Below are positions 1,936 to 60,353 of a stretch of DNA of 64,000 nt, one piece after another. The stretch is from NCBI GenBank assembly GCA_021404565.1, contig JAAWWF010000007.1, positions 124,001 to 188,000 on the forward strand, in the 5' to 3' direction. The stretch's first letter is position 1, and every line of letters begins with the position of its first letter. The translations under genes and the position numbers were made by a program. The notes under the pieces are model-generated. The model worked only from the letters and a program-made list of their open reading frames with translations. It was not told the DNA's origin and searched no databases. The DNA comes from Roseivirga sp. (lineage in GTDB: Bacteria; Bacteroidota; Bacteroidia; Cytophagales; Cyclobacteriaceae).

Positions 1936-1943
1936 TTTGTTTT

Positions 1944-6508: not shown

Positions 6509-6641
6509 TTATTCTCTTTTTGAACAACAGTATTAATTATGTCACTTTTTGAGGCCAAAAACTGACGGATTAAGGGCGCAATTATAGTCAAATACCTCAG
6601 GCATGCTAACTTCTTAGATTCCAAATATCTCAAGGCACATA

Positions 6642-8474: not shown

Positions 8475-8494
8475 TAGAAAATTCACTATCAAAT

Positions 8495-10558
8495 CTATTC
8501 TACAATTAATTCATCCGCAAAAAGCCAGGCTCTTCCGCCATTTCCTGCATGCCACTCGGGGCATGTACCTATATTTTTAGCGTGCACTCTTATATACCGT
8601 GCCTTCGCTCCATTTACCTCCTGTTTAATGTCCAAGTTTAGATTGGCCTGCCCGCTTTCTATATTAAATTTCCGTATACCGACCTGGGTATAATTCTCTC
8701 CATCTTCGGATATTTCAAAGGTCACCTGTTCGGGTTGAAAGATCCAGACACCATGATGCTGCAACATACCCAGGGTAATCGAATTGACTTTTTTTTCCTC
8801 TCCTAAATCGGCTGTTATAACCAAATCCTCACCTTCAAAGCCCAACCATTTTCCATCGGCAAAGCCTTCATGAGATCGTTCTCCATCGGCCAGGGTCATT
8901 TCTCCTGCTCCGCTATACTTTTGGCTATAGTTATTCTTCAGGCCAATACTCTTGAATCTGGTGCTGCTAACAAATTCAGCGGTGACTTCTCCGGAGTCAA
9001 CAAATCCGGTCTTTGTAGAAATTGCTCTGACTTCTACAGTGGAAGAAATCTTAAACGGGCCTTGATACCTCAGGGACTCAGGTCCCGGTGCACTTCCATC
9101 GAGTGTATAGTATATAGTTGAACCTTCTTCTGCCTTAATTTCAACCTCATTCTCTTTATAAAAAATGTTTTTTTCCTGAGGCTCGATACCCAGTGTACTT
9201 ACCGTTGGTTCGTTCAGAACATTTGATTCCTTCCCCTTAATTTTAAACACCCAGGCTTTCGTACTAAGATTGCGGATACTCTCTGGTACTTCAATCAGTG
9301 TACCCCGGGTTTCATCATAGGTCCAGCTAAGCGGCTTATCAGATCCAAGAAAGTAGATCTCACTATTCTTTTCAGGAACCACATTTTTAAGCTGCAATTG
9401 GGCTTCAGGTTGTTCCAACACCAATCCATAAAATATGTCTGTCCCTCTTTTTTGGGTATAGCGGATATTTTCTCCCTGGTAGAATTTTTTAAGGGCGACC
9501 GTTCCGTAAATGGCTTCTCCGTTCAGTTTCATCCACTCTCCCATATCCTGTAGTCTTTCTACGCTTGGCTGTGGTATCAACCCCTCATCCGTAGGGCCTA
9601 CATTGAGCAGATAGTTTCCACCTTTCGCAGCAATATCGATCAGGTTATGGATAAGGGTTTCGGATGATTTCCAATTGTCATCATTCCTCTTAAAGCCCCA
9701 GGTATCATTCATCGTCATACAAGACTCCCAGTCCATATCCGAGGTACCTTCCAGTATTTCCTGTTCCGGGGTACCAAAGTCACCAGCGTAAGACTTGTCT
9801 TTGTTCATCCCCTGCATGCCTTGTCTTCCTTTCCCTACCCTGTTATTGATCAGAATATCTGGCTGAAAGCTTCTTACATAGTCGTAGAGCTCTTTTCCCT
9901 GTGGTTCTGTCCATTCATCGATCCACTCTCCATCAAACCAAAGCACGGCTATATCTCCATAATTAGTTAAGAGTTCTTTCAGCTGAGGCTTCATATACTC
10001 ATCCCTGTACTTTGCGAAAGTTTCACCTTTTGCTTCCGGGTGATGCCAGTCCATTATGGAGTAATAGAAGCCCAATTTGATTCCTTCTTTTTTGCATGCA
10101 TCGGCCAGTGCTTTTAGTGCGTCTTTTCCATAAGGAGCGGCATCTACAAGGTCATAATCAGAAACTTTTGAATCCCACAAGCCGAAGCCATCATGGTGTT
10201 TTGAGGTGATGACTATATATTTCATTCCAGCTTCTCTGGCCAGTTTGGCCCAGGCTTCAGCGTTGTATTTTACAGGATTGAAATCCTTAACGAACTTCTC
10301 ATATTCGTCTAGGGGAATATTGGCTGAGCTCATGATCCATTCGCCAATCCCTCCTACTTCTTTGCCCTGATAGATACCAGCTGGTACAGAATAGGCTCCC
10401 CAATGGATGAACATACCAAAGCGTGCTTCCCTCCACCAGTCCATACGAGTGTCTGTATCAGCTGATAAGTATTCTGTGGATTTGGGTTGACTACAGGTCG
10501 TAAGCAGGCCGACCGTCAACACGATGAGAAAGTAAGCTTTAAGCTTTTGAGGAGACAT
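8495..10558 (-). CDS. GH29 alpha-L-fucosidase, lipoprotein, with CHB_HEX and discoidin-like domains
   Basis: Fucosidase of 687 residues with a lipoprotein signal (LLTTC, Cys22). The barrel at about 35-360 contains MFIHWGAYSVPAG, VITSKHHDGFGLW and IAVLWFDGEWID, the last with the candidate nucleophile; the pattern is GH29-A-like. A GH29 C-terminal sandwich follows to about 450, then a CHB_HEX-type domain with YYTLDGSAPG (about 475-530) and a discoidin-like module with WLGFEGEDL, WIFQPEQV and AWLFADELIVE. It is the promoter-proximal gene of a two-gene fucosidase unit with the PA14-containing enzyme. About 75-100 bases upstream of its start lies a sequence element that recurs upstream of the unassigned enzyme gene at 34140, a likely shared regulatory site. 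Confidence 0.94.
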   Translation of the reverse strand: MSPQKLKAYFLIVLTVGLLTTCSQPKSTEYLSADTDTRMDWWREARFGMFIHWGAYSVPAGIYQGKEVGGIGEWIMSSANIPLDEYEKFVKDFNPVKYNAEAWAKLAREAGMKYIVITSKHHDGFGLWDSKVSDYDLVDAAPYGKDALKALADACKKEGIKLGFYYSIMDWHHPEAKGETFAKYRDEYMKPQLKELLTNYGDIAVLWFDGEWIDEWTEPQGKELYDYVRSFQPDILINNRVGKGRQGMQGMNKDKSYAGDFGTPEQEILEGTSDMDWESCMTMNDTWGFKRNDDNWKSSETLIHNLIDIAAKGGNYLLNVGPTDEGLIPQPSVERLQDMGEWMKLNGEAIYGTVALKKFYQGENIRYTQKRGTDIFYGLVLEQPEAQLQLKNVVPEKNSEIYFLGSDKPLSWTYDETRGTLIEVPESIRNLSTKAWVFKIKGKESNVLNEPTVSTLGIEPQEKNIFYKENEVEIKAEEGSTIYYTLDGSAPGPESLRYQGPFKISSTVEVRAISTKTGFVDSGEVTAEFVSSTRFKSIGLKNNYSQKYSGAGEMTLADGERSHEGFADGKWLGFEGEDLVITADLGEEKKVNSITLGMLQHHGVWIFQPEQVTFEISEDGENYTQVGIRKFNIESGQANLNLDIKQEVNGAKARYIRVHAKNIGTCPEWHAGNGGRAWLFADELIVE

Positions 10559-10633
10559 TTTGGTTAAGGTCTGATAGAAGAAGCAAGTTACGGCCTCTGG
10601 ACTCCGTTTTCTATCAGTTCATTCACTCACTCC

Positions 10634-10657
10634 AACACTATACTTGCAAGAAAATGA
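10634..10657 (-). promoter_or_regulatory. Conserved upstream element, copy 1
   Basis: On the plus strand this reads AACACTATACTTGC, three bases, AAAATGA. The same pattern with one difference (T for C) and identical spacing occurs at 34233-34256. Both lie about 75-115 bases before the start codon of the first gene of a minus-strand unit. Read on the minus strand the core is TCATTTT, three bases, GCAAGTATAGTGTT, and a TATTTRCA lies at the same distance upstream in both copies. It may be a promoter with an operator; the Bacteroidota -33/-7 consensus is not an exact match. Confidence 0.45.
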
Positions 10658-10710
10658 ATAACTGAATAGATATCTGCAAATAAGGTGTATGAATTAGTTC
10701 TGAATATAGC

Positions 10711-10784
10711 CTCGGACTGAGTCCGAGAGTTCATTATGGTCGCAGGTTCCACCTTTCTGGCGGATAAATCTGAGAACCTGCGAC
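10711..10784. repeat. Two adjacent hairpin-forming inverted repeats
   Basis: CTCGGAC and GTCCGAG flank a TGA loop at 10711-10727, giving a perfect 7-bp stem. Twelve bases later GTCGCAGGTTC (10739-10749) is matched exactly by its reverse complement at 10774-10784 across a 24-base loop. Neither is followed by a T-run on the minus strand that would mark a clear intrinsic terminator. They may be an RNA structure or a repeat remnant. Confidence 0.5.
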
Positions 10785-10830
10785 AGTTAGAATGGGAAAG
10801 AGGACAAACATAGGCGAGATGCTCATAAAC

Positions 10831-10978
10831 CGTCCGACCTTGATGCTGATAAGTTTGTTATCAGATTTCCGAAGTATTCCTCTCTTAATGAATTGTGATT
10901 GGATTCTACCCCATATCTGTGCTGACGGGGTATTGTTGATCCGCGTTCCCTGCAGAAGATTCTGATTGGGGTCAGGTG
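10831..10978. repeat. Degenerate copy A of an intergenic repeat family
   Basis: This stretch shares blocks with copy B (11801-11956) in the same order: CGTCCGACCTTGATGCTGAT is close to the copy B text at about 11866, and GCTGACGGGG occurs in both. It begins immediately 3' of the DUF1963 gene stop, the same placement as the other copies relative to their upstream genes. The similarity is patchy, so this copy is less certain. Confidence 0.4.
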
Positions 10979-10982
10979 GGTT

Positions 10983-11699
10983 TTATGATTGTGCCCAGTG
11001 AAACTCGCAACTTTCAAAATTCAGGTTTTTTAAATCATCCTTAGAAATCAGCACACTAAACACTCCCTCATCGTTAAATCCGGCCTCTCCTATTTGAAGC
11101 AGTACAATTTTTTCTGAGTTGATTATGTTCTCGATCTCACTTTCTCCTAATTGACAATGTGTAAATATTCCGAACAGCTTGGATTTGTTGCTGCCAGCAA
11201 ATTCATCCCAAATTAATCCTTGCTCATTTACTCTTTTTCTCTCCCAATCATCCTCAGGTACTCTAAATCTATCTTCCCATGATTCAGTATCTGACCAAAT
11301 TCGATCGATTAATACACCATCCCAAAAATTGTCTTCGTGTTCAACAATCTGTCTATGCAAATTCTCATTGGGTTCTCTGGAATAAAAAACTTTCCCGGTG
11401 TCAGTCATCATGTCTGAGAAAAAGATGAGTTGTCCATTTCCAGGCAATAACCGAGAATTATCATGTTTTGAAATCTCCGATAGATCCAGCTGTGCTGCAA
11501 ACCTCATCCCTGAAGGAAAGGGAACATCTTCCGGTAAATCAATCACTGGTCCTCCATATCGAGAATGGCCAAGAGGAATTTCCAAATCCGTAAATTTCAC
11601 ATATTCATCTCCCATCCAGTCTTCTTTTTCCATAGATGACGGGAAGTATCTGCTGGCAGACGGGGCCAGTGATATAATGTCAAATTTCTCTTTGTGCAT
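10983..11699 (-). CDS. DUF1963 (YwqG-like) protein
   Basis: A 238-residue cytoplasmic protein with no signal peptide. Family features are HSRYGGPVIDLPEDVPFPSG near residue 50, then MRFAAQLDLSEIS, LLPGNGQLIFF, a central DDWERK region and the C-terminal IFTHCQLGESE and LLQIGEAGFN segments. This matches the DUF1963/YwqG family, whose members are often annotated as suppressor or immunity-like proteins without a known activity. It has no evident link to glycan breakdown. It is isolated between hydrolase operons, with repeat-bearing intergenic regions on both sides (424 and 257 bases), as expected for a gene inserted at a break between operons. Function unknown. Confidence 0.8.
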   Translation of the reverse strand: MHKEKFDIISLAPSASRYFPSSMEKEDWMGDEYVKFTDLEIPLGHSRYGGPVIDLPEDVPFPSGMRFAAQLDLSEISKHDNSRLLPGNGQLIFFSDMMTDTGKVFYSREPNENLHRQIVEHEDNFWDGVLIDRIWSDTESWEDRFRVPEDDWERKRVNEQGLIWDEFAGSNKSKLFGIFTHCQLGESEIENIINSEKIVLLQIGEAGFNDEGVFSVLISKDDLKNLNFESCEFHWAQS

Positions 11700-11800
11700 T
11701 TCTTAAGGTGTTGATGACTGAATTCCTTTTGACTGTAATGAATCTAGTTTGTTTTTATCTTCCAAAAAACCCTGAAGGCGTCCAAGTGTGGATTTCGTTG

Positions 11801-11956
11801 ATCAGGGTCCTCTGCGAGAGACCCTGATCGGGATCGTAAGTTCTTTTTCAAAGGCGTCCGACTTTGATTCTGATGAGTATGCGGCTGAGTCTCGCAGGTT
11901 CGTTTCTATAAGTCGCTTACTGACAGGCTTCGATGACGTATCGGTGCTGACGGGGC
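11801..11956. repeat. Intergenic hairpin repeat, copy B
   Basis: The left end is a strong hairpin at 11801-11828: ATCAGGGTC plus CTC pair with GAG and GACCCTGAT around TGC with a single bulged A. The right end, GCTGACGGGGC, abuts the stop codon of the phosphodiesterase gene at 11957. The AGGGTCCTCTGCGAGAGACC block also appears in copy D (18106-18216), and the GACGGGGC end at the gene stop recurs in copies C and D. A 65-codon minus-strand frame (11802-11999) within it is a by-product of the repeat. Confidence 0.6.
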
Positions 11957-12748
11957 TTACTGCTCTGGCAATAGCTCCAATACCACCAGCACTGGACAAT
12001 GATCTGAAGCAACTTTTTCATCGATTACCTGGGTTTCTAAAACTCTCCATCGGTAAGCTGGCCTAAAGAGGATGTAATCTATTTTTCTTGTAGGATCATC
12101 TGAGGGGAACGTAGGTGTATCTTCTTTAAAGGATCGGGTCCACCTGGTAAACAACTCCTGCATGGCAGCCTTTTCAGGTGTTGCATTCAGGTCTCCGGTG
12201 AGGATGGCAGGACGATTGTCTGTCGTCAAAATACGGTTCAGTTCCTTTGCCTGCATAAGTCGATTAGTCGGGTCTCTTTCATGATCCAAATGGGTACCTA
12301 CAAAGCGAATGGTGTCACCACTTTTCAGAATTACATTGACTTCCGCAGCAGCTCTGGGTTCCTTGCCTTCTGTGTAGGGTAAAGGGTGATTTTTGGTACT
12401 GAGAAAGGTAAAACCCGAAAGTATTCCTTCCCCATATTCTCCACCATCATAGGGCATTGCTCGCGCAAAAAGCGGAGACATTCCTGTTCTGAAAGCCAAC
12501 TCTGTGACCAGGTCGTACTTTTTGGCCCTATTGGTTTTATAGTCTACCTCCTGCAAGGCCACCAGATCGGGCTTTGCCGATTTAATGACACTGGCGATCA
12601 AGTCCAGGTCAAAGTCACCTTTTGTGGTGGCCCCATGCAGAATGTTAAAAGTGAGGACTCTTACAATCCGTGACGAATCGGGAATCTGGCCAATAAGGCT
12701 GTTGGTCAAAAGAACAAACGAAAGTAAAATCAGTGGCTTTCTCATCAT
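11957..12748 (-). CDS. Exported endonuclease/exonuclease/phosphatase (EEP) family phosphodiesterase
   Basis: A 263-residue protein with a type I signal (ending SLIGQIPD). Core motifs of the EEP fold are present in order: LTFNILHG, VALQEVD with the metal-binding Glu, GTHLDHE, LTGDLNATP, RKIDYILF and ASDHCPVLV with the catalytic Asp-His. Family members hydrolyse phosphodiester or phosphomonoester bonds in nucleic acids, lipids or sugars; the substrate cannot be told from sequence. Its first ATG overlaps the stop of the sulfatase gene (12745-12748), so it is coupled to a glycan-desulfating enzyme. This supports a role in removing a phosphate-type substituent, but nutrient scavenging is equally possible. 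It is the last gene of its run, followed by repeat copy B. Confidence 0.88.
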   Translation of the reverse strand: MMRKPLILLSFVLLTNSLIGQIPDSSRIVRVLTFNILHGATTKGDFDLDLIASVIKSAKPDLVALQEVDYKTNRAKKYDLVTELAFRTGMSPLFARAMPYDGGEYGEGILSGFTFLSTKNHPLPYTEGKEPRAAAEVNVILKSGDTIRFVGTHLDHERDPTNRLMQAKELNRILTTDNRPAILTGDLNATPEKAAMQELFTRWTRSFKEDTPTFPSDDPTRKIDYILFRPAYRWRVLETQVIDEKVASDHCPVLVVLELLPEQ

Positions 12749-27181: not shown

Positions 27182-28504
27182 CTATCCCTCGCTTATCTGA
27201 TGCTTTCTAAAAACCTCTCGCCCATACCAGGCTATGTACACAAAGCAAACCAGAGGAAGTATAAAGGAGAAATTGACTTCTGATACTCCTGTGATTTGTG
27301 TGTCACTCACACCACTACCTCCCACATCAATGATCATTCCCTGCCACTTGGGCATAAGGGCTCCTCCTACAATGGCCATGACCAAACCGGCTGCACCAAT
27401 TTTGGACTCTTCTTCATTGAGTCCGTTCAGCGCAATACCATAGATAGTAGGGAACATAACAGACATGAAAAATGAAACACCTACCAGCGCATACAAACCA
27501 AAAGTGCCGTCAACATAAATGGCCAAAAGTGTACAAATACCCGCCAATATAGCGAAGTACATCAGGAGCTTGCCTGAGTTGATAAATCGTAGTAAATAAG
27601 TACCAATAGCTCTACCCAACAGGAATGCTATAAAGGCTGCAAACTGGTAGTTGGCGGCCACTGTGCTTGATATACCTATGGCTTCTGCGTACTGATAAAT
27701 ATAGGTCCAGCACATGATCTGAGCTCCGACATAGAATACCTGAGCCAATACCCCCAGTACATATTTTTTGTTCGTGCGCAGGGAATCGAAGGAGGACTTC
27801 ACGCTGGGTATTTTTCCCTCTCCCCTGGTTTGTGGCATTTTGCTCACCGCAATGAGAATAAAGATACCAATGAGCACTAACCCCAGAATAACATAGGGAT
27901 CTCTGATGACCATTAAATCTGAGGTTTTGATCAATGTCTTTTTGGCAAGATCAAGGGAAGCAAAATCTGCAATATCATCGGATTGGAGCTTTCGCAGTAC
28001 AAACTGCTGAGCAACTAACAAGCCTCCCAGCAGCCCTACAGGGTTGAATGCCTGTGCCAGATTGAGTCGTTGAGTAGCGGTTTCCCTGGCTCCCATGGCC
28101 AATATGTAAGGATTGGCTGTGGTTTCTAAAAAGGCCAGACCGAAAGTAAGGATGTACAGACCGAGGCAGAAAAACCAGAACTGCTCGGTAATGGCAGCCG
28201 GATAGAACAAAAGCGCCCCAACTGCATAGAGGGCCAACCCTATCAAAACGCCTACCTTATAAGAGTACTTTCTTACAAAGAGGGCTGCGGGTAAAGCCAT
28301 ACAAAAATAGCCTCCATAAAAAGCCATCTGCACCCAGGCAGCTTGCGAATTGGTGAGTTCCAGCACTTTTTTGAAAGCCTGTACCATGGGGTCGGTAACC
28401 GCATTGGCAAAGCCCCAAAGTGCAAAAAGGGAGGTGATCAGGATAAAAGGAACGAGGGTTTTCCGATCGACAAGTTTGGCTTTTTGTTGGGGGATTGTGG
28501 TCAT
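27182..28504 (-). CDS. fucP: FucP-type L-fucose:H+ symporter (major facilitator superfamily)
   Basis: A 440-residue integral membrane protein with about 12 hydrophobic segments. The N-terminus LVPFILITSLFALWGFANAVTD closely matches FucP-family permeases, with the signature continuing as FYGGYFCMALPAALFVRK and LAFLETTANPYI, the latter containing the acidic residue used in proton coupling. C-terminal segments such as FMSVMFPTIYGIALNGL and AAGLVMAIVGGALMP are also family-typical. It brings L-fucose released by the secreted fucosidases into the cytoplasm, where the flanking mutarotase, SDR and hydroxy-acid dehydrogenase act. A permease for another 6-deoxyhexose cannot be excluded, but the fucose context is strong. 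Confidence 0.9.
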   Translation of the reverse strand: MTTIPQQKAKLVDRKTLVPFILITSLFALWGFANAVTDPMVQAFKKVLELTNSQAAWVQMAFYGGYFCMALPAALFVRKYSYKVGVLIGLALYAVGALLFYPAAITEQFWFFCLGLYILTFGLAFLETTANPYILAMGARETATQRLNLAQAFNPVGLLGGLLVAQQFVLRKLQSDDIADFASLDLAKKTLIKTSDLMVIRDPYVILGLVLIGIFILIAVSKMPQTRGEGKIPSVKSSFDSLRTNKKYVLGVLAQVFYVGAQIMCWTYIYQYAEAIGISSTVAANYQFAAFIAFLLGRAIGTYLLRFINSGKLLMYFAILAGICTLLAIYVDGTFGLYALVGVSFFMSVMFPTIYGIALNGLNEEESKIGAAGLVMAIVGGALMPKWQGMIIDVGGSGVSDTQITGVSEVNFSFILPLVCFVYIAWYGREVFRKHQISEG

Positions 28505-28513
28505 TGACAGGGA

Positions 28514-29293
28514 TTAAATAATGCGGTCTAAATGGGCATAACCACCATCAACATAAATATGCTGTCCGGTGGTATGGGCTGCCATATCTGAGAGGAGAAA
28601 TAAAGCTGTATTGGCTATTTCATCAGAGGTGGTCATGCGATTCTCCAGTGGTATTCTATCCGTAATAGTTTTCTCTTTGGAGGCAGGGTCGTCAAAGGTC
28701 TCCAGCCACTTCTTATACAGGGGTGTCATAACCTCAGCTGGTACTATAGCGTTTACCCTGATCTGATATTTTAAAAGTTCTACTGCCCACTCTCGGGTCA
28801 GGGCCAGCACACCACCCTTGGCAGCAGCATAGCCAGAGGTATTACCCTGGCCGGTAAGGGCGGTTTTAGAGGCGATATTCAGAACCGTTCCATTTGACTC
28901 TTTGAGCAAGGGCAAACAAAAATGTGTCAGGTCATAAATATGGTTAAGGTTCTTCTGAAGTGATTCTCTGAAAGCTTCAGGACTCCCTGATTCTAAACCC
29001 ACACCGTCATTGACTCCAGCATTGTTTATCAGGCCATCAAGTTTTCCAAAGGCTGTCTGAGTTTGCTCTACTACCTCCCTGCACTGTTCCGTATTACATA
29101 AGTCAGCTTCAATGAAGAGAACTTTATGACCCTTTCCACTAAGATTTTTGCCCAGTCTGGTTCCTGCTTCTGCATTTTTATCTACAATCACCGGAATGGC
29201 GCCTTCGGCTATAAGCCCCTCTGTAATGGCCAGACCAATACCACTTACGCCCCCGGTAACCATGAAGATTTTATCTGCCAGTCTTAAGTTCAT
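28514..29293 (-). CDS. Short-chain dehydrogenase, probable L-fucose dehydrogenase
   Basis: A 259-residue cytoplasmic SDR with TGGVSGIG (13-20) for NAD(P), INNAG near 90, and the catalytic set Ser142, Tyr155 and Lys159 in NIASKTALTGQ and SGYAAAKGG. Asp38 after the second beta strand (VIVDKN) suggests NAD preference. The VNAIVPAEVMTPLYKKWL segment is one I associate with SDR L-fucose dehydrogenases, which oxidise L-fucose to fuconolactone. Placement between the GH95 gene and the FucP permease agrees. The alternative is 2-keto-3-deoxyfuconate dehydrogenase, but the SDR at the right edge of the window fits that step better. Confidence 0.85.
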   Translation of the reverse strand: MNLRLADKIFMVTGGVSGIGLAITEGLIAEGAIPVIVDKNAEAGTRLGKNLSGKGHKVLFIEADLCNTEQCREVVEQTQTAFGKLDGLINNAGVNDGVGLESGSPEAFRESLQKNLNHIYDLTHFCLPLLKESNGTVLNIASKTALTGQGNTSGYAAAKGGVLALTREWAVELLKYQIRVNAIVPAEVMTPLYKKWLETFDDPASKEKTITDRIPLENRMTTSDEIANTALFLLSDMAAHTTGQHIYVDGGYAHLDRII

Positions 29294-29325: not shown

Positions 29326-31689
29326 TTATTCTTCAACCAGCTGATGATTAAGCGTATAGCTGGTCCCCGCTTTCATTTTAATCGTTTTGACTATTTCTCC
29401 GTACCTCAATTTGTAGTCACCAGATTCAGTGGGAGTTATCACCACATTTACCAGTACTCCGTTTTTCCAATCAAGGTCAACGGTGAGGTTGCCCCTTGCT
29501 TTTAGTCCTTTGATTTTTCCTGCTGACCAACCGGGTGGTAAGGCTGGTAGTAAATGAATTTCTCCGGTATGAGATTGTAGCAGTGCCTCAGCCACACCGG
29601 CTGTAAAACCAAAATTTCCGTCAATCTGGAAAGGGGGATGCATATCAAATAGGTTGGGTACAATAGACTTCTGCAAATGAAGATTGATATGCTTTTCTAC
29701 CTCTGCTCCTTCCTGTAATCTGGCAGAAAGATTGATCAGCCAGGCCCGGCTCCAGCCCGTACCGGCACCGCCATGGGCTAGTCTATAGTCCGTTGATTTT
29801 TTTACCGCTGCAAACCAATCCGGTGTGCCTTCTTTGGTGATAGTATTGCCCGGGTAAATGGCATAGAGATGTGACATATGGCGATGACCTTTTTCAGCCT
29901 CTTCATAGGGTCGGTCCCATTCCAAAATGCGTCCGTCTGGCCCTATGACTACTCCGGGTCTTAGGTTTGTTAGCTTCTCTTTTACTTCTGCGGTAAATTC
30001 ATCTTCAATCCCCAGGACAGCAGCAGCCTTCAACGCATTGGTAAACACCTCCTCGATAATCTGCTGATCAATGGCAGTGCCCAATACCGTGGCCGCGGAT
30101 TTGCCATCAGCTGCGATATAAGAGTTCTCAGGGGAGGTGGCTGGAGCAGATATCCATTTGCCATCTCTCGGGTCTTTCATAAGCCAATCGAGATAAAAGA
30201 GAGCCGATTGCTTCATGGCCGGATAGGCTCTGTCCCTCAAAAAGGCCTCGTCTTTTGTGAATTCGTAGTGATCCCAGAAATGCTGCATCAGCCAGCCACC
30301 GCCACCAACCCAGGCCCCCCAGTAAGGTTGCTCTGCGCGCATCCAGGCGGGTGCCCAAAAGTCCGTAGCCTGATGGGCCACAAAACCCCGCATGTTGTAC
30401 TGTTCTTTTGCTGTAACCTTACCTCGCTCAATCAATCGCTCTGTAAAGTCGAAAAGCGGGCCATGCAGTTCGCTGAGGTTGGTCACTTCAGCAGGCCAGT
30501 AGTTCATCTGCAGGTTGATGTTCAGGTGGTAGTCGGCATTCCAGGGGGCTTTCAGGTATTCATTCCAGATGCCTTGCAGGTTGGCAGCATTAGAGCCTGG
30601 TCTGGAGCTGGCAATCAACAAATAACGCCCGAATTGGAATAGCTTGGCTACAAGGTCTGAATCAGCGGCTCCGGCCTTAACTCTATCCAGTCGGGTATTG
30701 ACCGGCAGGCTATCGAGTTCATGATTACCCAGATCAAAGTACACACGCTTAAAGAGTTGCTGATAATCCAGCACATGGTTTTTCAGGATTTCTTCAAAGC
30801 TACTTTCGGTCAGTTTTTCCTGGTCAGCCGCTGCTACCCGGACAAAATCCTCTCCGTGATACCAGGAACTGGCAGAAGTGATATAGAGCACCGCTCGGCT
30901 CACCTTGTTCAATTGAAGCTGACCATTGATGGCTTCCACTGAGCCTCCTTCGCTTTCTACCCTCAATCGGCTTTGAAATTTCACGCCATAGTCAATACTC
31001 ACAGGTTTCGAGAAATGCTTTCCATTTCTTTGGGTCACTTCGCCTGTCATCCACAATTCATTACCATTATGAGAAGTCACGTCAACCGTTGGTTCTCCTT
31101 CATCATCCGGCCGGCTTAATTCCAGTGACAAGTTAAGCCCTTCAGGACTGGTAGTTTTTAGCTCAATTACGATGGTATTGTCGGGGTGAGAGGTAAAGAC
31201 CCGCTCCGTAAAATCACCTTTATCAGTTTTGTAGCTGATGGTCACGAGAGCAGAATCCAAATCGAGCTGACGGTGATAGTCCGTTATCTCCCTGTCTTCA
31301 AAATTGATAAACAGGTCACCCATCGTCTGATGCGATTTAACAATGCTTTTATGAGAGAAACTCCCTACCCAGGCCTTATCTGCTTCGTGTACCTTACCGG
31401 CTATCAAAAGGTCCCGGACTTTCTGTAAGTCTCGCGGGGTTCCCTGGGCATCACCCCAATCTGGCCCGCCCGGCCACATAGAGTCTTCATTGAGCTGGAT
31501 TCTTTCTCTGTCAGGATCACCAAAGACCATCGCCCCCATACGTCCATTGCCTACAGGAAGTGCTTCTTTAGACCAGTTGCTGGCCGGGGCATCGTACCAA
31601 AGCAAATTTCCGTACTCAGGTACATCAGGAGATGTCTGACATGCCGAAAATGCCAAAGTGAAAATCAGAAAGCTTACGAACTGCTTCAT
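29326..31689 (-). CDS. GH95 alpha-L-fucosidase, lipoprotein
   Basis: A 787-residue exported enzyme with lipobox FSAC (Cys17). The N-terminal super-sandwich begins LWYDAPASNWSKEALPVGNG and QLNEDSMWPGG, both diagnostic of GH95. The (alpha/alpha)6 barrel contains NLQGIWNEYLKAPWNADYH and LNINLQMNYWPAEVTNL, with the Asn pair that activates water in this inverting family, and PFQIDGNFGFTAGVAEALLQS with a further active-site Asp. GH95 enzymes mostly release alpha-1,2-linked L-fucose from galactose termini, and some act as L-galactosidases. It lies immediately after the unassigned enzyme gene (no bases between the genes) and just before the SDR/permease unit, linking release and uptake of fucose. Confidence 0.95.
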   Translation of the reverse strand: MKQFVSFLIFTLAFSACQTSPDVPEYGNLLWYDAPASNWSKEALPVGNGRMGAMVFGDPDRERIQLNEDSMWPGGPDWGDAQGTPRDLQKVRDLLIAGKVHEADKAWVGSFSHKSIVKSHQTMGDLFINFEDREITDYHRQLDLDSALVTISYKTDKGDFTERVFTSHPDNTIVIELKTTSPEGLNLSLELSRPDDEGEPTVDVTSHNGNELWMTGEVTQRNGKHFSKPVSIDYGVKFQSRLRVESEGGSVEAINGQLQLNKVSRAVLYITSASSWYHGEDFVRVAAADQEKLTESSFEEILKNHVLDYQQLFKRVYFDLGNHELDSLPVNTRLDRVKAGAADSDLVAKLFQFGRYLLIASSRPGSNAANLQGIWNEYLKAPWNADYHLNINLQMNYWPAEVTNLSELHGPLFDFTERLIERGKVTAKEQYNMRGFVAHQATDFWAPAWMRAEQPYWGAWVGGGGWLMQHFWDHYEFTKDEAFLRDRAYPAMKQSALFYLDWLMKDPRDGKWISAPATSPENSYIAADGKSAATVLGTAIDQQIIEEVFTNALKAAAVLGIEDEFTAEVKEKLTNLRPGVVIGPDGRILEWDRPYEEAEKGHRHMSHLYAIYPGNTITKEGTPDWFAAVKKSTDYRLAHGGAGTGWSRAWLINLSARLQEGAEVEKHINLHLQKSIVPNLFDMHPPFQIDGNFGFTAGVAEALLQSHTGEIHLLPALPPGWSAGKIKGLKARGNLTVDLDWKNGVLVNVVITPTESGDYKLRYGEIVKTIKMKAGTSYTLNHQLVEE

Positions 31690-34140
31690 TTATTGAATAC
31701 TTACAGGTTCAGCTTTCCCCATAATTCTTACTTCCAATTTGGCTTTTGGCTCTTTACCTGCATTGCTGAAAGTACAGTCAAGATTAATAGTCTGATCACC
31801 GTTCTTGATGGCCAGGTCAATGTTCAAATCAACCTCACGGATTTTCTGCCAGTTTTCGTTGAGAAGGGTAGCGGTTTTACCACCTTCATACTTGAGGCTT
31901 TGTCCATTTTTCAATCGCAGGGGCAGAACGACTTTCTTATAATTGTTCAGTTCCAGACTGATATTCGATAAGTCGGCTTCGACAGCTGAGAGAATAAACT
32001 GGACTCTATTATCTCCCGTTTCATTTTCGAATTCAAAGCTGGAATAGAGCGGTTCACCGGGCTGTCTTACTTTCTTTTCATGGCTGAATTTGTGTGAGAA
32101 AACCTGATATAGATTCCATTGATTTTCGGCCAGGGTTTCCAGGTGAAATTCATTGTTTATGTCTTCCATTCTCAGCCTTTGCTCTTCAGAGAAAACATCT
32201 GCCATCCGGGCCTTTTCCCATTCTCCAATAGCGCTCAGTATTTCTTCCGTATAGCCGTTTTTCTCCAGGGCATCGAAATTGGTAACGAAGGCATAACCCG
32301 CATTGAAGGCTGCAGAACGAGCAAGCATCCATTCAATATCTTCGATACTGGTGGTAGGGCGCATACTGAACCAGCCCAGCATGCCCGGCATATAATTACG
32401 CTGGAAGTATTTCTGGTTTTTCAGTCGGTATTCTGTCTGGCTTTCTCTGAAACCGGCATACCAGGGTTCGCCCCAATTCATCCGGGTGTAGATATGCCAG
32501 AAGTAGTGGGTAGTGCGACTGGCATCGGCTATATAGTGGGATTTGATATCATCTGACAGCCCGTCATACCAGGCCTTGGTGAATAGAATCTCTCCGTAGT
32601 TTCCCATGCCCGTAGATCGGTTGCCTTCTACCCCGTCAAAAGAGATTTGGCGCAGTCCGGTTTCATTGTAGAGATCGGCTAAATTTTTAGCCATTTCATC
32701 ACCGAGCTGTGCATTGGTCAGGAAGACTTTATAGGCATGGTCAGCCAATAAACTGATCTCGCTTCCGCTCGGGTGATTTGTGATTTTCGTACCATACGCA
32801 CCGCGTTGACAATCAAGCAGCTTCCAGGGGGCAGCCTCAGATACACCTCCATAGCGAATCAGCTCCTTGCCTATCTGTACAGTTTTCAAACTGTTGTTCT
32901 TCATTTGCCTGAAGAAGTCAGAGGATTCAATGGGAATCTCCTTCTGGCTGGTATTGACATCCGAACTCAACTGGCTTGAACCCACCTTTGCCAGGCGGTC
33001 ATCAGGTACGGGAGTGACAAAAGCATCGTTAGTCGTAATGAAGTTTGATAGGGTATGAGCTCCTACCATGATTCCCTGCGTTTCAGCCTTTGCCACCACA
33101 GCCTTCATACCTTTTCTGCCATTGGGAAAGCCATCGTTGAGCTCAAAATTGCCCCAGGTTTTAAAAGGGCCATCGTGATAGAGATACCTCAACCCAGCCT
33201 GTTTGGTATAATCAATAGCACGATCAATGTTCTTCTCGCTAAACCCCATAATCATGTAAGCAGCAGCTGCCGTTCGGGTGGTTTTACCCCATTTGCCATC
33301 AATCATAGGATGAGGCAAACCCTCCGCGAGTTCAATTTTCCCGAGTGTTTCCAGGGCATCTCTTTCAGTTGAGCCAAAGAGGGCAATTTTAGAACCTATC
33401 ACTCCCCCATCATCATAGGCTGGAGCCACATACTGATCTTTGCTCCAGTTTTTGATGACCCTTTCTTTACTACGGTTTCTGGTATAAGCCTGCAAGGTGC
33501 TACCAAAATCAGTAGGCTTGGCGGCCTCCACCCGATAGAGCACATAACGCTTACCCTTCTCGCTTAAATCAGAGTAGTCACCTCCCTCAAAAATGTCGAT
33601 CTGGGGCATGGCATCATTATCATTCCAGGGATAGCCGCCCAGGGTTTTCGGGTTAAGGGATTGAATACCAATGGCAAAGTCTTTATTTCTGACCACTCCC
33701 ACCGTTTCGCCAATCACGCCATCAATGGTGGTTGGGTAGGGACCCCAGAGAACAAGGTCAACTTCATCGGCACCTGTCATTGCTGTCAACTCAAAAGTGA
33801 TGTGACTGTCCTTTTGTCCTACCAGAACTTCCGCCTTTCTATCTCCCGGAAATTCCAGGGATAAAATCTTTGTATTTTCTACAAATGAAGCAGATTCGGG
33901 TTGGATGGCGACTCCATCCTGCCAAATACTGAGAATGGACGACAGGGTATCTTTGAAATGGTAATCCAGACTTGCCGTGATATCTCTGAAAGCGGTAATC
34001 TCGCCTTTCTTATTCAGGCCTAATTCGAAGCTTTCACTCTTAAAGGTGATTCGCTTTTCTGAACAGCTGGTTGCAAGAAATCCAATCAAAAGAATAATGG
34101 AAAGCGCAGAGATTCCGGGCCTATATGAGCATGCCTTCAT
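31690..34140 (-). CDS. Large exported enzyme of unassigned family, probable TIM-barrel glycoside hydrolase
   Basis: An 816-residue lipoprotein (ATSC, Cys26) that I do not recognise. Layout by eye: an N-terminal beta-sandwich about 28-240 (FELGLNKKGEITAFRD onward), a central alpha/beta region about 285-640 with barrel-like alternation (AAAAYMIMGFSEKNIDRAIDY, GLRYLYHDGPF, GIMVGAHTL, LRQISFDGVEGN, YAFVTNFDAL), and a C-terminal beta domain about 680-816. Candidate catalytic acids are Asp323, Asp502 and Glu505, at the ends of predicted strands. The ISFDGVEG segment resembles strand ends that carry a nucleophile in alpha-glycosidase barrels, but no named family motif is present. It leads a unit with GH95, preceded by a conserved upstream element. 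The setting suggests action on a fucose-containing glycan, perhaps internally; this is inference. Confidence 0.6.
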   Translation of the reverse strand: MKACSYRPGISALSIILLIGFLATSCSEKRITFKSESFELGLNKKGEITAFRDITASLDYHFKDTLSSILSIWQDGVAIQPESASFVENTKILSLEFPGDRKAEVLVGQKDSHITFELTAMTGADEVDLVLWGPYPTTIDGVIGETVGVVRNKDFAIGIQSLNPKTLGGYPWNDNDAMPQIDIFEGGDYSDLSEKGKRYVLYRVEAAKPTDFGSTLQAYTRNRSKERVIKNWSKDQYVAPAYDDGGVIGSKIALFGSTERDALETLGKIELAEGLPHPMIDGKWGKTTRTAAAAYMIMGFSEKNIDRAIDYTKQAGLRYLYHDGPFKTWGNFELNDGFPNGRKGMKAVVAKAETQGIMVGAHTLSNFITTNDAFVTPVPDDRLAKVGSSQLSSDVNTSQKEIPIESSDFFRQMKNNSLKTVQIGKELIRYGGVSEAAPWKLLDCQRGAYGTKITNHPSGSEISLLADHAYKVFLTNAQLGDEMAKNLADLYNETGLRQISFDGVEGNRSTGMGNYGEILFTKAWYDGLSDDIKSHYIADASRTTHYFWHIYTRMNWGEPWYAGFRESQTEYRLKNQKYFQRNYMPGMLGWFSMRPTTSIEDIEWMLARSAAFNAGYAFVTNFDALEKNGYTEEILSAIGEWEKARMADVFSEEQRLRMEDINNEFHLETLAENQWNLYQVFSHKFSHEKKVRQPGEPLYSSFEFENETGDNRVQFILSAVEADLSNISLELNNYKKVVLPLRLKNGQSLKYEGGKTATLLNENWQKIREVDLNIDLAIKNGDQTINLDCTFSNAGKEPKAKLEVRIMGKAEPVSIQ

Positions 34141-34311
34141 AATGTCCGATGGTTGGTACCTAATCGATTGAACAATGGAGATAAATCTACCGCTATCAGC
34201 GAAACTATACTAGTAAACCATTCACCACACTGAACACTATATTTGCCCCAAAATGATAGTAAGTTGAAAATAATGTAAATAAATGATCACTTGTAAGCTT
34301 ATACTATTTCA
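34141..34311. other. Intergenic leader of the 34140 unit
   Basis: A 171-base non-coding stretch between the cysteine-cluster gene and the leader gene of the GH95 unit. It holds the second copy of the conserved upstream element (34233-34256). I see no further gene or strong terminator here. Confidence 0.5.
34233..34256 (-). promoter_or_regulatory. Conserved upstream element, copy 2
   Basis: Plus strand AACACTATATTTGC, three bases, AAAATGA, matching copy 1 at 10634 in 20 of 21 fixed positions with equal spacing. Similarity extends on both sides: GTGAATG follows on the minus strand in both, and TATTTRCA precedes at the same distance. It sits 93-116 bases before the start at 34140. Confidence 0.45.
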
Positions 34312-50675: not shown

Positions 50676-53045
50676 CTATTTGAGGGTGATCGGGATTTCC
50701 AGCTCTTTCTGATTTCTCACAACCGTCAGCGTTATCTGCCCTTTCCACATATTTCCTTTGTAAGCTTCCATCAATTTGCGGATGTCTGACGCATCTTCAC
50801 CGTTTAGCTTCAAAATGACATCGCGCACCTTTAGTCCACCGGCCATTGCCTGACTTTCGGTAGGCATCTCTAACAATATCATTCCTTTTTCTTCTGCCAA
50901 TCCGGCTGCCGACCTTTCTCCCAATCCCTGAATTTTCCTAACACGAGCACCCAGAAAATCATACACCTGCCTCTTGTCTTCATCGGCTTCTGCAGTATAA
51001 AGTACCGGGATTTCGGGAGTTGCCACCAGGTCTATCAGGTGTGAAGATTTTACTCCAAACAGGTCCATTGGAAAATTCTTAAATCCGACTGTCAAGGCAG
51101 GAGAGGTTTCTTTCACTGAGAAATCACCTCTTTCGGGATCCGTAAACTGAGGATTTCCAAAACTGCTGTGTTCATCGGTTCCATTCATTCGTGCATTGCT
51201 CAGGGCTACTGAGTCGGGAAAGAAGTTGTAGTCTACCTCATCTCCCCATTTGGGCACCCTTATAGGTTTATAGCCCGTCATGACGATGTTATTTTTAAAT
51301 ACATCATGACTTTCGTCAAACCATACATGGGGATGGAAGGAATTATTGACCATGATGTTGTTTTCTACCCTGCGATTAAAGCCTTCTCTGAGCTTTATGC
51401 CACCATTCAGGCAGAGGTTATTATAGATATGATAGTTGCCGGAACCATCGTCCAGATCAATATCCCAGCCATGGTCACACCTGAATCGGTTGTTTCTGAT
51501 GATAGTGGTTTTGATGGCATCAATTGTGGTAAGTGATGGCTCTTTAGTGGTTCTGACATTGAGGCTATCTCTGTTCGGGTGCCAGAAGCGGTCTCTTCCC
51601 CAGGAGTTGAACGACCCATGGTCACCTGTTTCAAGTACAGTATTGAATACATCATTAAACTCGATGAGATGTCCACCCCAGGTACCCTCGCTGATGTTGA
51701 TACCCGACCTGGGCAGGTTGTAAATACTGTTATTACTCACGGTAATATCCATGGCCATTGAGATCTGAACTCCGGCTACCTGTTTTTCAATGCGACCGAT
51801 GTCGTGGATCAGGTTGTCATCAGCAATACAGTCTGCGGGATAGTCCCTGGTTTTTGGACCAAGCTCTCTATCCAGTTCGTCCATGGCTGTATACTCATAA
51901 TATTGAAATGAAGGTGACCGCACAGCTTCGGGACTTCCTACAAAAGCAATGGCACTGGCTCCTATTTGCTCAAAGTGATTTCCCCTAATCTGGATATTGC
52001 GGTTGTATTTGTTGACGAATACTCCATTACCTCCCAGCTGACTAAAATGACTATTGCTGATGATACAGTTCTCCGCATTGGTGAGCAATATGGCTCCTCC
52101 CCGATAGATCGTCCAGTCGCTCCTGAGCAAGGGTTCATCGGTTTTCATATAGGTAGAACGCGTGTGGGTGAATTCTAAACCATCCAGTGTCAGGTATTGG
52201 GCCGGGGCTTCATCAGTTCCGGTTATTTCTATCAAATGGTCCAGAACGGGTACCTCGATAAGGGCTTCATTTAAATCCGATTCGTCATCAGGGTAGTAGT
52301 AGAGGGTATTCTCCTCCTGATCCAGGAACCACTCTCCTTTACTATCCAGCTCTTCTCTGATGTTTTCGACATATTGATAGCGTGGATGCATACCCATTTG
52401 TCGATTGTTCTGGAAACCTCCTTTAAGGTTCAGTTCTCCATTTGGTTGCTTACCTTCTATCTGGTAGTGGTACCCTCCCCATTCTGCCCTGTGCATGGCA
52501 TGAAGCACTCCACCTGCGGGGTTTTCCCAGCCTTTAACCCTTTCTTTGGAAGTGGCATCTTCCGCGTAGCCATTGAAAATATGCTCATTGGGATCAAAAT
52601 TCGGGTAGCGTGCCCTTATCTTTTTCTTTCCATTTATAAAGAGCTGATCAAAGGAATAAGGTCTGTCTAATTGTGCTTTCATTAATCCATTTCCTGCCTC
52701 TTCCCACTGGGGCTTTAACACCCGGGCACCTGACAGTGTTACCTGCTCATGAGGATACCCGGCTATTTTCAGTGGTGCCATTTCCGACCCTGCATTGTCA
52801 GCATTAATCTGAATCGTGCTGGCCAAATGGTAGGTTCCTCCTTCGAGCAGAATCGTAACCGCTTTATTTTCTTCCTGCCTTAAACTTCGGGCCTTGATTA
52901 GGGCTTGCTCCAGTGACTTTAGCGGGTCCATCCTGCTTCCTTCATTTAGGTCATTTCCTGCAAGGTTTACATAGATGAATTGCTCTTCAGAAGTGCAGGA
53001 CAGGGTTAGTGCAGCGACTAATAAAAATGGAAGTAGTAGTTTCAT
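50676..53045 (-). CDS. Right-handed beta-helix protein of GH141 type with C-terminal PDZ domain, lipoprotein
   Basis: A 789-residue lipoprotein (LTLSC, Cys17). Residues about 22-640 form a parallel beta-helix: IYVNLAGNDLNEGSRMDPLK and EGGTYHLASTIQINADNAG at the N-terminus, then repeating coils such as NCIISNSHFSQLGGNGVF, IQIRGNHFEQIGASAIAF, ITVSNNSIYNLPRSGINIS, HLIEFNDVFNTVLETGDHG and YHIYNNLCLNGG. The N-terminal architecture and the TLDGLEFTHT region match proteins in GH141, a family with a characterised alpha-L-fucosidase from rhamnogalacturonan-II breakdown and a xylanase. The last about 100 residues (LEMPTESQAMAGGLKVRDVILKLNGEDASDIRKL) form a PDZ domain, an odd partner for a glycan enzyme. 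A fucosidase role is suggested by the locus but not proven. Confidence 0.72.
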   Translation of the reverse strand: MKLLLPFLLVAALTLSCTSEEQFIYVNLAGNDLNEGSRMDPLKSLEQALIKARSLRQEENKAVTILLEGGTYHLASTIQINADNAGSEMAPLKIAGYPHEQVTLSGARVLKPQWEEAGNGLMKAQLDRPYSFDQLFINGKKKIRARYPNFDPNEHIFNGYAEDATSKERVKGWENPAGGVLHAMHRAEWGGYHYQIEGKQPNGELNLKGGFQNNRQMGMHPRYQYVENIREELDSKGEWFLDQEENTLYYYPDDESDLNEALIEVPVLDHLIEITGTDEAPAQYLTLDGLEFTHTRSTYMKTDEPLLRSDWTIYRGGAILLTNAENCIISNSHFSQLGGNGVFVNKYNRNIQIRGNHFEQIGASAIAFVGSPEAVRSPSFQYYEYTAMDELDRELGPKTRDYPADCIADDNLIHDIGRIEKQVAGVQISMAMDITVSNNSIYNLPRSGINISEGTWGGHLIEFNDVFNTVLETGDHGSFNSWGRDRFWHPNRDSLNVRTTKEPSLTTIDAIKTTIIRNNRFRCDHGWDIDLDDGSGNYHIYNNLCLNGGIKLREGFNRRVENNIMVNNSFHPHVWFDESHDVFKNNIVMTGYKPIRVPKWGDEVDYNFFPDSVALSNARMNGTDEHSSFGNPQFTDPERGDFSVKETSPALTVGFKNFPMDLFGVKSSHLIDLVATPEIPVLYTAEADEDKRQVYDFLGARVRKIQGLGERSAAGLAEEKGMILLEMPTESQAMAGGLKVRDVILKLNGEDASDIRKLMEAYKGNMWKGQITLTVVRNQKELEIPITLK

Positions 53046-55617: not shown

Positions 55618-56997
55618 CTACTTCAGAATCAGTTCAATTACCGGTATTTCAACATTGGGTTTGACTACTGGCAATGCCAGATTGATATCTCCTTCTCCTA
55701 ATTTTTCCTTTCCCCAGTAGCCATGAGGTTCAGTAATTAAAATCTCTGAAGCATCGTGTAGGAACTGTGCATATTTCACTTTGCCTTTGAACCCTCTGAG
55801 CGTAAAATTCTGCAATGGGTAGTCCAGCAGGTGCACATACAACCGGTTAGTCTCAGGGTTATAGGTGAGCAGGGAGTTATCAGGAATGTGAAACTCCTCC
55901 GGAGCCTGCGTAGCTCCATAAATGGACCGGCTGTTTACCTTCATCCACTTACCCATTTTTTCAAGTGCTGCTTCTGCCCTGTGGTCAATAGTGCCTCTGC
56001 CGGTGGGGCCTACATTCAAAAGCAGGTTCCCTCCTTTGCTCACAGATTCAATAAGCAATACCAATAGCTGCTTATTGTTTTTCCAGGTCATTTCATCCCG
56101 GTAATAGCCCCAAGAACCACTGAAGGTCTGACAGGTCTCCCAGGGGATTTTCTGACCATTGTAGGTAGGCCAGTCGGCTACTTTAAATTGTTCGGGCGTA
56201 GTGAAGTCCCAGCCCCCGGCATAATCTTTCAAATCAGCCCTGTCGTTAATGATAATGCCCGGCTGCAGCTTGCGAACCATTTTCATCAACTCAATCGAGC
56301 CCCAATCGTCCCGACCCTTGCCGTTTTTTCCGGGGAACGAATAGTCAAGCCAGAGAATATCCACCTTGCCATAATTGGTCATGATCTCGGCAACCTGGTC
56401 TTTGACGTATTGGCGATAGACTCCCATATCCCGGCCTTTATTGAGTTGGGTATATTCTTCATCTGAACGGGCACTCTGCGGGTGAACCCGATCGACTGTA
56501 TACTCAGGGTGATGCCAGTCTATCAGTGAATAATAGAACCCTACTTTAAGTCCTTCGGCCCTGAAAGCATCTACCCATTCCCTGAGTGCATCTTTACCAT
56601 AAGGCGTATTGGTGGCCTTATAGTCTGTGAATTCTGAATCGAAAAGAGTGAACCCTTCATGGTGTTTGGCCGTGATGACCGCGTACTTCATGCCTGCAGC
56701 TTTGGCCATTTTTGCCCATTCAGTCGGGTTGAATAAGTCGGGGTTGAAGTTCTCGAAATACTTTTGGTATCGCTCGTCCGGAATTCTCTCGTTCTTTTTC
56801 ACCCATTCATGTCGTCCGGCCAGAGAGTAGGTCCCCCAATGGATAAACATGCCAAAGCGGTCATTCGTCCACCAGGCAAGACGATCTTCTTTCTGAGCCT
56901 CCGTCTCATCCCAGATTTTCTGCTGACCCGAAACATTCAGTGATGTAAAAAATAGTAGCACTATCAGGGTCTTAAAAAGTTTTATTGGTTCATTCAT
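55618..56997 (-). CDS. GH29 alpha-L-fucosidase, exported
   Basis: A 459-residue enzyme with a type I signal (FKTLIVLLFFTSLNVSGQQ). The barrel (about 35-365) holds MFIHWGTYSLAGRHEW, VITAKHHEGFTLFDS (Glu in place of Asp of KHHDG), and KVDILWLDYSFPG with the candidate nucleophile Asp followed by Tyr instead of Gly. GGNLLLNVGPTGRG follows as usual. The C-terminal sandwich ends NVEIPVIELILK. LWLDYS is seen in a subset of Bacteroidota GH29 proteins whose specificities differ from the classic enzyme. Its start overlaps the stop of the large ThuA/sugar dehydrogenase fusion by ATGA (56994-56997). Confidence 0.92.
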   Translation of the reverse strand: MNEPIKLFKTLIVLLFFTSLNVSGQQKIWDETEAQKEDRLAWWTNDRFGMFIHWGTYSLAGRHEWVKKNERIPDERYQKYFENFNPDLFNPTEWAKMAKAAGMKYAVITAKHHEGFTLFDSEFTDYKATNTPYGKDALREWVDAFRAEGLKVGFYYSLIDWHHPEYTVDRVHPQSARSDEEYTQLNKGRDMGVYRQYVKDQVAEIMTNYGKVDILWLDYSFPGKNGKGRDDWGSIELMKMVRKLQPGIIINDRADLKDYAGGWDFTTPEQFKVADWPTYNGQKIPWETCQTFSGSWGYYRDEMTWKNNKQLLVLLIESVSKGGNLLLNVGPTGRGTIDHRAEAALEKMGKWMKVNSRSIYGATQAPEEFHIPDNSLLTYNPETNRLYVHLLDYPLQNFTLRGFKGKVKYAQFLHDASEILITEPHGYWGKEKLGEGDINLALPVVKPNVEIPVIELILK

Positions 56998-59900: not shown

Positions 59901-60353
59901 CAGAATACTGATTTTCGCCTTTTGCTGATGAGGATGGCTCTGAAAATAAGCCCCTACCAGCTGGTTGTACCATGGCCAGTCGTACTCTGTATCAGCCGCT
60001 GCATGAATGCCAACAAAACCTCCACCTGCCTGGATGTATCGCTCGAAATCGGCCTGCTGATAGTTGTTCAGTACATCGCCCGTAGTACTTAGAAAAATAA
60101 CGGCACTGTATTGAGCCAGATTGGCTTCAGTAAAGTAACCAGCATCGGTAGTTGTATCAATTTTAATATTGTTTTCACCAGCCAACTTTAAAATGGCTAC
60201 CGTTCCCGCATCTATGGAGTTGTGGTGGTAGCCAGCTGTTTTAGAAAAAATAAGAAGCTTCTCTTCTTTGGGAACCCCACAACCGGATACAGTCGTGGCC
60301 ATAAGGAGCAGTAAAAAAAATTTGAGGAGTTTATCGGACATCGGTTGATTCAT
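56994..60353 (-). CDS. ThuA / soluble sugar dehydrogenase / PKD / cytochrome c / CBM6-like fusion, lipoprotein
   Basis: A 1119-residue exported protein (lipobox VSGC, Cys25; an ATG at 60341 is an alternative start). Domains in order: ThuA-like (about 30-255, LLIFSKTAGYHHNSIDAG, GGGFVGIHAAADTEYDWPWY), a six-bladed PQQ-dependent glucose/sorbosone dehydrogenase-type propeller (about 275-690, EDGLLGLAVDPDY, THDCCHSGGSLEFD, MGLRNPFRISVD), a PKD domain (about 700-790, YLWSFGDLGSS), a class I cytochrome c (DCLACHAVDKKINGPS with the CxxCH haem site and a distal Met in TPMAAHPQ), and a CBM6-like C-terminus (AILQAEDANETHDG). It probably oxidises a sugar in the periplasm, passing electrons to its own haem. 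The lactonase gene follows eight bases upstream, hinting at a lactone product; speculative. Confidence 0.82.
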   Translation of the reverse strand: MNQPMSDKLLKFFLLLLMATTVSGCGVPKEEKLLIFSKTAGYHHNSIDAGTVAILKLAGENNIKIDTTTDAGYFTEANLAQYSAVIFLSTTGDVLNNYQQADFERYIQAGGGFVGIHAAADTEYDWPWYNQLVGAYFQSHPHQQKAKISILDRSHSATEHLPETWEHFDEWYNYRNIAEGLNVLMNLEESSYEGGENGASHPIAWYREFDGGRMFYTGLGHTDESYTDELFLKHVWGGIEYAIGSNKRDYGKATSERVPEENRFVREVLAFNLNEPMELDYLPKEKILFIERGGDLKLYDLIAGELLDAGHLDVKYIAEDGLLGLAVDPDYATNNWIYLFYSAKVEGKLQRLSRFSFTDGQIDVSSEKVMMEFPSTHDCCHSGGSLEFDAQGNLFLSTGDNTNPFESDGFSPSDEGPGRSVWDAQKSSANTNDLRGKILRIKPEADGTYSIPAGNLFEDDDPKTRPEIYTMGLRNPFRISVDQRTGILYWGDVGPDSGKDGPERGPKGHDEINQAKKPGNWGWPYTRGNNKPYWDYDFVNKKSIRPFDPQNLINNSPNNTGIENLPPAQESFIWYGYDASEEFPWLGEGGRTAMAGPVFNKELYAGSTSGFPDYFDGKLIIYEWMRDWMFLITMDENHDYVKAEPFLPNEEFHNPMDMAFGADGSLYVLEYGESWNTRNMDAQLNRISFVSGNRAPIARITADKSVGAAPLTVDFSGESSEDLEGEPLKYLWSFGDLGSSTEAATSFSFDKAGTYEVSLTVRDSKGLTSQATYAVVVGNAPPVVSVSFDSENTFYNGKGELGYQVSVTDTEDGSTADGSIAADAVEVVLDFIPEANTRQVVEQGHKIEILSNGKKYIDNSDCLACHAVDKKINGPSYQDIAEKYSTEHLDYLKNKIKNGGSGVWGETPMAAHPQLTDNELEEIVKYILSLEKTEKNLLPLEGMLNFDKHRRSNVSGMYVLTASYQDQGNGEASPLSSTAQYTFTAAILQAEDANETHDGNTVWQALGANVVGNIKDKHDFSFDNVLFDGLESVTIRGLYNEGYQYTGWVEVWKGDTAKELIGSVLIDYSNDKIQRFKNHVIPLEKNQGTDKLYIRFRNDTDPDQYVMNADYLLLNYENR

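Follow-up and report, generated by a model that had tools for sequence, protein, structure and literature searches.

A putative glycosidase of an undescribed family encoded in a fucose-centred locus of Roseivirga sp.

The window analysed here (64,000 nucleotides of Roseivirga sp. contig JAAWWF010000007.1) is a fucose-centred, sulfated-glycan locus, and a gene on its minus strand (31690-34140) encodes an 816-residue protein that is best filed as an undescribed glycoside hydrolase (GH) family inside a known superfamily. The favoured reading, which as a whole is given a probability of roughly 0.45, is that of a retaining lipoprotein glycosidase with an alpha-galactosidase-superfamily barrel, most likely exo-acting and with alpha-L-fucose as the leading candidate substrate sugar. 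Its parts differ in strength: membership of the protein among the glycosidases of the alpha-galactosidase superfamily is highly probable, action on fucose-containing glycans is likely, and exo-cleavage of an alpha-L-fucosidic bond is a best guess at somewhat less than even odds. The barrel would belong with clan GH-D (GH27, GH31 and GH36), with GH29 more distant.

None of the libraries searched has a named family that the protein matches. Pfam gave no family at E<=1, NCBIfam a single chance match (E 0.35), and phmmer drew nothing from the PDB sequences at E<=10; searched with a 65-row family profile, these sequences yielded only chance matches (best E 0.8). GH107, GH168, GH174 and GH187 were compared via PDB sequences alone, where phmmer found no relative and the profile chance matches only. 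The absence of a recognised family, as reported in a first-pass annotation of this DNA, is thus borne out. PF02065 (Melibiase, GH36) and PF12905 (GH101) were unmatched both in the protein (Pfam, E<=1) and anywhere in its own genome; PF01120 (Alpha_L_fucos, GH29) was unmatched at E<=1, likeness to GH29 lying at superfamily profile level only, and PF22124, the (alpha/alpha)6 domain of GH95, was unmatched in a protein whose model shows a (beta/alpha)8 barrel instead. A search for GH129 (PF11308) matched nothing anywhere and adds no information beyond the Pfam scan. GH139 was ruled out, its structure being (alpha/alpha)6 in the available part of PMC12282258, and GH195 was put aside by description, its kinship being with GH99 in the accessible text of PMC13063451. 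Seven further members, scanned against Pfam together with one neighbour, were likewise without a named family; the lowest sub-cut-off E-values were 0.0024, a weak match of a barrel insertion at locus L051 to a phage/gene transfer agent tail-protein domain (PF23666), and 0.0048 (CBM_11, locus L092). No published account of the family was found in the literature searched, with CAZy and most subscription papers outside that search.

In a one-genome-per-species collection, 271 of 286 pattern matches were confirmed as family loci, and the best 80 of these (51-81% identity) were analysed; by record title they come from Bacteroidota, Gemmatimonadota, Calditrichota, Aminicenantes and others. Within the window's phylum, a profile search found the family in 11 of 296 genomes, and the own genome holds a single copy. 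Divergent members occur at L091 and L092 and, as two extra genes (25-32% identity), at L070, where positions 2094-12514 hold a cluster of three family members, a 967-residue gene weakly GH36N-like (E 0.016) and oxidoreductase-like genes.

The layout of beta-sandwich, alpha/beta barrel and beta-domain, proposed earlier from the letters alone, is recovered in the predicted model (predicted local distance difference test, pLDDT, 91.3), and its (beta/alpha)8 barrel resembles those of GH27, GH31 and GH36. W132-G133-P134 and E145 of the sandwich are invariant in the 65-row alignment. The beta-rich insertion that follows barrel strand 3 bears the motif IGxELIxY...RGAxGT...H, with three invariant residues (E426, R446 and H456, each in 57 of 57 aligned members). 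Neither kinship to a characterised non-glycosidase family nor lack of a barrel was found by sequence or full-length fold search. The N-terminal beta-sandwich, (beta/alpha)8 barrel and C-terminal beta-domain are shared with GH36 alpha-galactosidases (TtGalA, 6lcj; T. maritima GalA, 6gvd; and FpGalNase, 9ayu, which we take to be filed in GH36), as is the Asp at the end of strand 4. Unlike GH36, to which identity is about 10% and whose Melibiase domain is unmatched, the family has a large insertion after strand 3, a His at the strand-2 sugar-binding position and a proposed acid/base that is Glu, not Asp. With GH29 alpha-L-fucosidases it shares genomes, often loci, and a strand-4 Asp nucleophile aligned to D502, with HHDG against YHDG; unlike GH29, it lacks a PF01120 match and has the N-terminal sandwich and the insertion.

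The top full-length Foldseek match, with the best E-value, was the GH101 endo-alpha-N-acetylgalactosaminidase EngBF (2zxq). The acid/base of GH101 is Glu, as is proposed for the family, but EngBF is 8-9% identical, has a larger chain (1178 residues) and represents a family whose PF12905 domain is unmatched here. This ranking, together with nine PF00884 sulfatase genes in the window, would suit an endo-acting enzyme, directed at the backbone of a sulfated fucan or at the release of O-glycans in the manner of GH101. Such an enzyme is quite unlikely, since VIA-align ranks exo-acting GH36 and GH27 enzymes highest and another gene of the locus could provide endo-activity; GH29 and endo-fucanase families were not among the 50 VIA matches listed, which excludes nothing. 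The other gene, at 50676-53045, combines a weak match to the GH141 insertion domain with a C-terminal PDZ-like match, an unusual pairing, and is a possible endo-fucanase; endo-fucanases are reported within GH141 in the available part of PMC12786026. The earlier view that the locus has only exo-acting enzymes is therefore doubtful, and its corollary, that the 816-residue protein supplies the missing endo-activity, is not supported, as neither a cleft nor endo-action was shown and endo-action has no direct support.

Two candidate catalytic residues emerge from conservation and profile alignment. D502, invariant in 57 of 57 members, is the terminal residue of a DSSP strand and the proposed nucleophile. 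KWD, KYD and W-DG are the nucleophile motifs of GH36, GH27 and GH29, and D502 (in ISFDGVEGN) was aligned on these positions in local hhalign alignments. E558, the proposed acid/base, is kept in 55 of the 57 and sits four residues past a two-residue strand (553-554) taken as strand 6; the proton donor at the strand-6 end in clan GH-D is Asp in GH27, GH31 and GH36. The proposed pair lies 56 residues apart, against 60 for D327 and D387 of T. maritima GalA, which we take to be its catalytic pair (D387 is named in a PDB title). H549 (57), R565 (56) and E505 (56, D in one) are similarly conserved. GH31 has a comparable supporting residue, and we take E505, three residues after D502, as probably supporting rather than acid/base. 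With the strand placing of the GH36, GH27 and GH29 motifs taken from the accessible parts of PMC1249566 and PMC10154630, conservation and alignment together point to the strand-4 Asp of clan GH-D. The acids named in the first-pass annotation thus fared unequally: D502 and E505 stand at a barrel-strand end, and D323 is ruled out as catalytic acid, being D in only 7 of 57 members. The residue before it, H322 (54 of 57), is matched to the second His in the GH29 motif HHDGF and is followed by a variable position; GH36 sequences have Asp-Asp there.

In hhalign comparisons of the barrel profile, made with the insertion left out and against small sets (6 GH36, 7 GH29 and 9 GH27 sequences), GH36 scored 92.8% locally and 95.5% globally, and GH29, entered as a control, proved similar (83.9 and 95.4). 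GH27 reached 27.7 and 0.1, a GH31-like set of sub-cut-off PF02065 matches 1.2 and 0.1, and a weak GH101-like set, made of sub-cut-off PF12905 matches and not true GH101, 1.9 and 0.1; GH20 and sulfatase profiles reached at most 0.6. The closest solved folds (GH36 alpha-galactosidases, FpGalNase and GH101) act on D-galacto sugars, and two GH20 genes, a sialidase-like BNR protein and a SASA esterase lie in the locus, as for mucin-like glycans, so a retaining enzyme of alpha-D-galactosidase or alpha-N-acetylgalactosaminidase type must be considered. It would be GH36/GH27-like and act on galacto-configured sugars on or capping fucosylated chains, linked to fucose only via the shared polysaccharide. 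H322 with its variable neighbour, in place of Asp-Asp, and downstream genes that serve fucose uptake and oxidation make this unlikely. Exo-alpha-L-fucosidase activity is the better guess on account of gene linkage, of FucP and fucose dehydrogenase being encoded downstream, and of the alignment of H322 to a GH29 His where GH36 has Asp.

The link to fucose extends across genomes. Among the 296 genomes of the phylum, GH29 was found in 90, GH95 in 61 and the control GH92 in 108, at unequal cut-offs (1e-3 for GH29 and the family, 1e-20 for GH92 and GH95); in the 11 family genomes, with lists matched by eye, the counts were 11, 11 and 5. Hypergeometric p-values were 1.3e-6 for GH29, 1.3e-8 for GH95 and 0.37 for GH92, with two of the 11 genomes (G158 and G162) carrying divergent members. 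Counted by genus (9 of 9), p was 4.6e-4 for GH29 and 1.0e-5 for GH95, and with the own genome left out 4.3e-6 and 6.4e-8. The genomes behind 30 of the 80 loci held GH29 in 29 cases and GH95 in 25. At the best 80 loci, labelled by similarity to window proteins and with flanks often cut (in L051 the family ORF, or open reading frame, was not picked up by the ORF caller), GH29 lay within the flanks in 11 (in 7 as immediate same-strand neighbour), GH95 in 5 and a sulfatase in 13. A Pfam census of same-strand neighbours, covering 44 of 49 upstream and 40 of 45 downstream, found GH29 five times upstream and three times downstream and GH95 once and three times, the rest being a mixture of families that includes housekeeping ones.

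In Algoriphagus formosus (L017) the family gene follows genes for fucose dehydrogenase (397.5 bits, cut-off 300), FucP (538.1, cut-off 280.4), a lactonase-like protein (269, below the cut-off of 400), an FAA hydrolase, an esterase-like protein and a HAD protein. Ten of its 12 neighbours were scanned and include no further GH; judged by similarity to window proteins, L011 and L018 look the same. The family gene is not the only fucosidase of Algoriphagus: both genomes checked of three (L017 and L011) hold a GH29 58-59% identical to that at window 454-1983. GH95 was not found in these two genomes at 1e-20.

Several observations weigh against the favoured reading. Fucose-type labels (GH29, GH95, sulfatase, fucose uptake or breakdown) occur in only 22 of the 80 loci, most being without; the three Algoriphagus genomes each hold one GH29 match elsewhere; and any enzyme acting on fucosylated substrates could co-occur with GH29 and GH95 in this way. 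As GH29 equals GH36 in global score and GH27 and the GH31-like set score low, the profile test cannot choose between GH36 and GH29, nor does its signal extend to the other clan families. Known GH structures are identical to the protein at about 10% of positions or fewer, which falls short of what membership would need. E558 falls one residue before the GH36 strand-6 Asp, presumably the acid/base there, in a low-confidence stretch of the global alignment, and its block of the model is less certain (pLDDT 77). The WGE motif is absent from L091, and L092 has WDRP there, which as aligned puts Asp at 557 and Arg at 558. When the barrel is searched by itself, plain Foldseek ranks pyruvate kinases first, with one amylase and no GH36 among the 50 matches listed. 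Pyruvate kinase has a barrel with an inserted beta-domain, and our reading of this ranking is shared topology, not kinship. These divergent members and the pyruvate kinase ranking would also suit a binding, transport or regulatory lipoprotein with a glycosidase fold, which is improbable given that the acidic centre (D502, E505, H549 and E558) is kept across several phyla by record title.

In the favoured reading, D502 would attack the anomeric carbon and E558, near the end of strand 6, would serve as acid/base, with retention as the most likely mechanism. The enzyme would most likely remove a terminal sugar, with alpha-L-fucose as leading candidate, from fucose-containing glycans; the freed L-fucose would enter the cell via FucP and be oxidised by the dehydrogenase encoded downstream. 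By sequence, the N-terminus looks like a lipoprotein signal ending in LATSC26, with C26 kept in at least 90% of the 65 alignment rows, and the ATG-initiated product, described before as an 816-residue lipoprotein, would be placed in the outer membrane or periplasm. Of the earlier interpretation, the GH-like architecture, the unnamed family, D502 and E505 at a strand end and the fucose locus stand, a catalytic D323 and the missing endo-activity do not, and "a new fucosidase-like family" proved the better half of the proposal. More tentatively, a clan GH-D alpha-galactosidase scaffold may have been turned to L-fucose, founding a new GH family whose members are alpha-L-fucosidases (or fucanases) and in which E426, R446 and H456 of the inserted beta-domain help to read a possibly sulfated substrate.

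Table 1. Features of the family gene and its surroundings (window positions)
Feature	Position	Strand	Basis
Family gene, 816-residue putative retaining glycosidase, lipoprotein-like	31690..34140	-	ORF call, homologues, model, conservation
Cys26 (LATSC), predicted lipidation site	34063..34065	-	sequence; codon checked
N-terminal beta-sandwich, ~residues 28-257	33370..34059	-	model, alignment
(beta/alpha)8 barrel, residues 268-662	32155..33339	-	barrel modelled alone, pLDDT 92.3
Beta-rich insertion, barrel strands 3-4, residues 385-465	32746..32988	-	model, conservation
His322, possible sugar-binding His	33175..33177	-	conservation 54/57, hhalign
Asp502, proposed nucleophile, end of strand 4 (498-502)	32635..32637	-	conservation, hhalign; codon checked
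Glu558 (WGEP), proposed acid/base	32467..32469	-	conservation, global profile alignment
Conserved upstream element GCAAATATAGTGTTCAGTGTGG, possible operator or promoter	34225..34246	-	recurrence at orthologues
GH95, directly downstream	29326..31689	-	PF22124 E 8e-166
L-fucose dehydrogenase	28514..29293	-	NF052481 400.8 bits, cut-off 300
L-fucose:H+ symporter FucP	27182..28504	-	TIGR00885 509.7 bits, cut-off 280.4
GH141-like beta-helix protein	50676..53045	-	GH141_M 27.7 bits, cut-off 27 (weak)

The GH95 gene begins at the base after the family-gene stop codon, as had been noted. Past FucP lie genes for a flavin mononucleotide-dependent L-lactate-dehydrogenase-like protein (below NCBIfam cut-offs) and a protein with an FGE-sulfatase domain. 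Also present in the window are seven genes of GH29 type (PF01120), one GH43-like gene, an FAA hydrolase and an L-fucono-lactonase-like amidohydrolase (292 bits, below the cut-off of 400), besides the GH20, GH141-like, PF00884, SASA and BNR genes mentioned above. A 1119-residue fusion of ThuA, glucose/sorbosone dehydrogenase, PKD and cytochrome c domains is also encoded within the locus (56994-60353, minus strand).

The nearest same-strand upstream gene ends 171 bases from the family gene, and since this gap holds a conserved element, the family gene probably leads its unit, as previously suggested, and may be co-transcribed with the genes downstream. The core GCAARTATAGTGTT at 34233-34246 (minus strand) recurs at 10634-10647 (minus strand) ahead of a GH29 gene; with two mismatches allowed there are three matches in the window, a number reached by 3 of 100 shuffles. 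Four other loci were inspected for this "conserved promoter element" of the first-pass annotation: the core is found ahead of the orthologous genes at L028 and L002 and was not seen by eye in about 360 bases at L003 and L004. At L002 it grows into a perfect palindrome (TATAGT-GTCT-ACTATA), which suggests that the element may be an operator. In the own genome, a search returned the family-gene site (1 mismatch) and five sites at 3 mismatches, against three for a reversed control, and with matches this close to the control no regulon could be drawn.

Fucose-releasing families reviewed in the available part of PMC10154630 are GH29, GH95, GH139, GH141 and GH151, and if the protein does release fucose, one more family would join this short list. 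The prediction is concrete, naming one protein and two candidate catalytic residues (D502 and E558), and it concerns a widespread family, confirmed at 271 places, for whose member in the window neither Pfam nor NCBIfam has a name. If true, it would provide a tool for fucoidan and mucin glycans.
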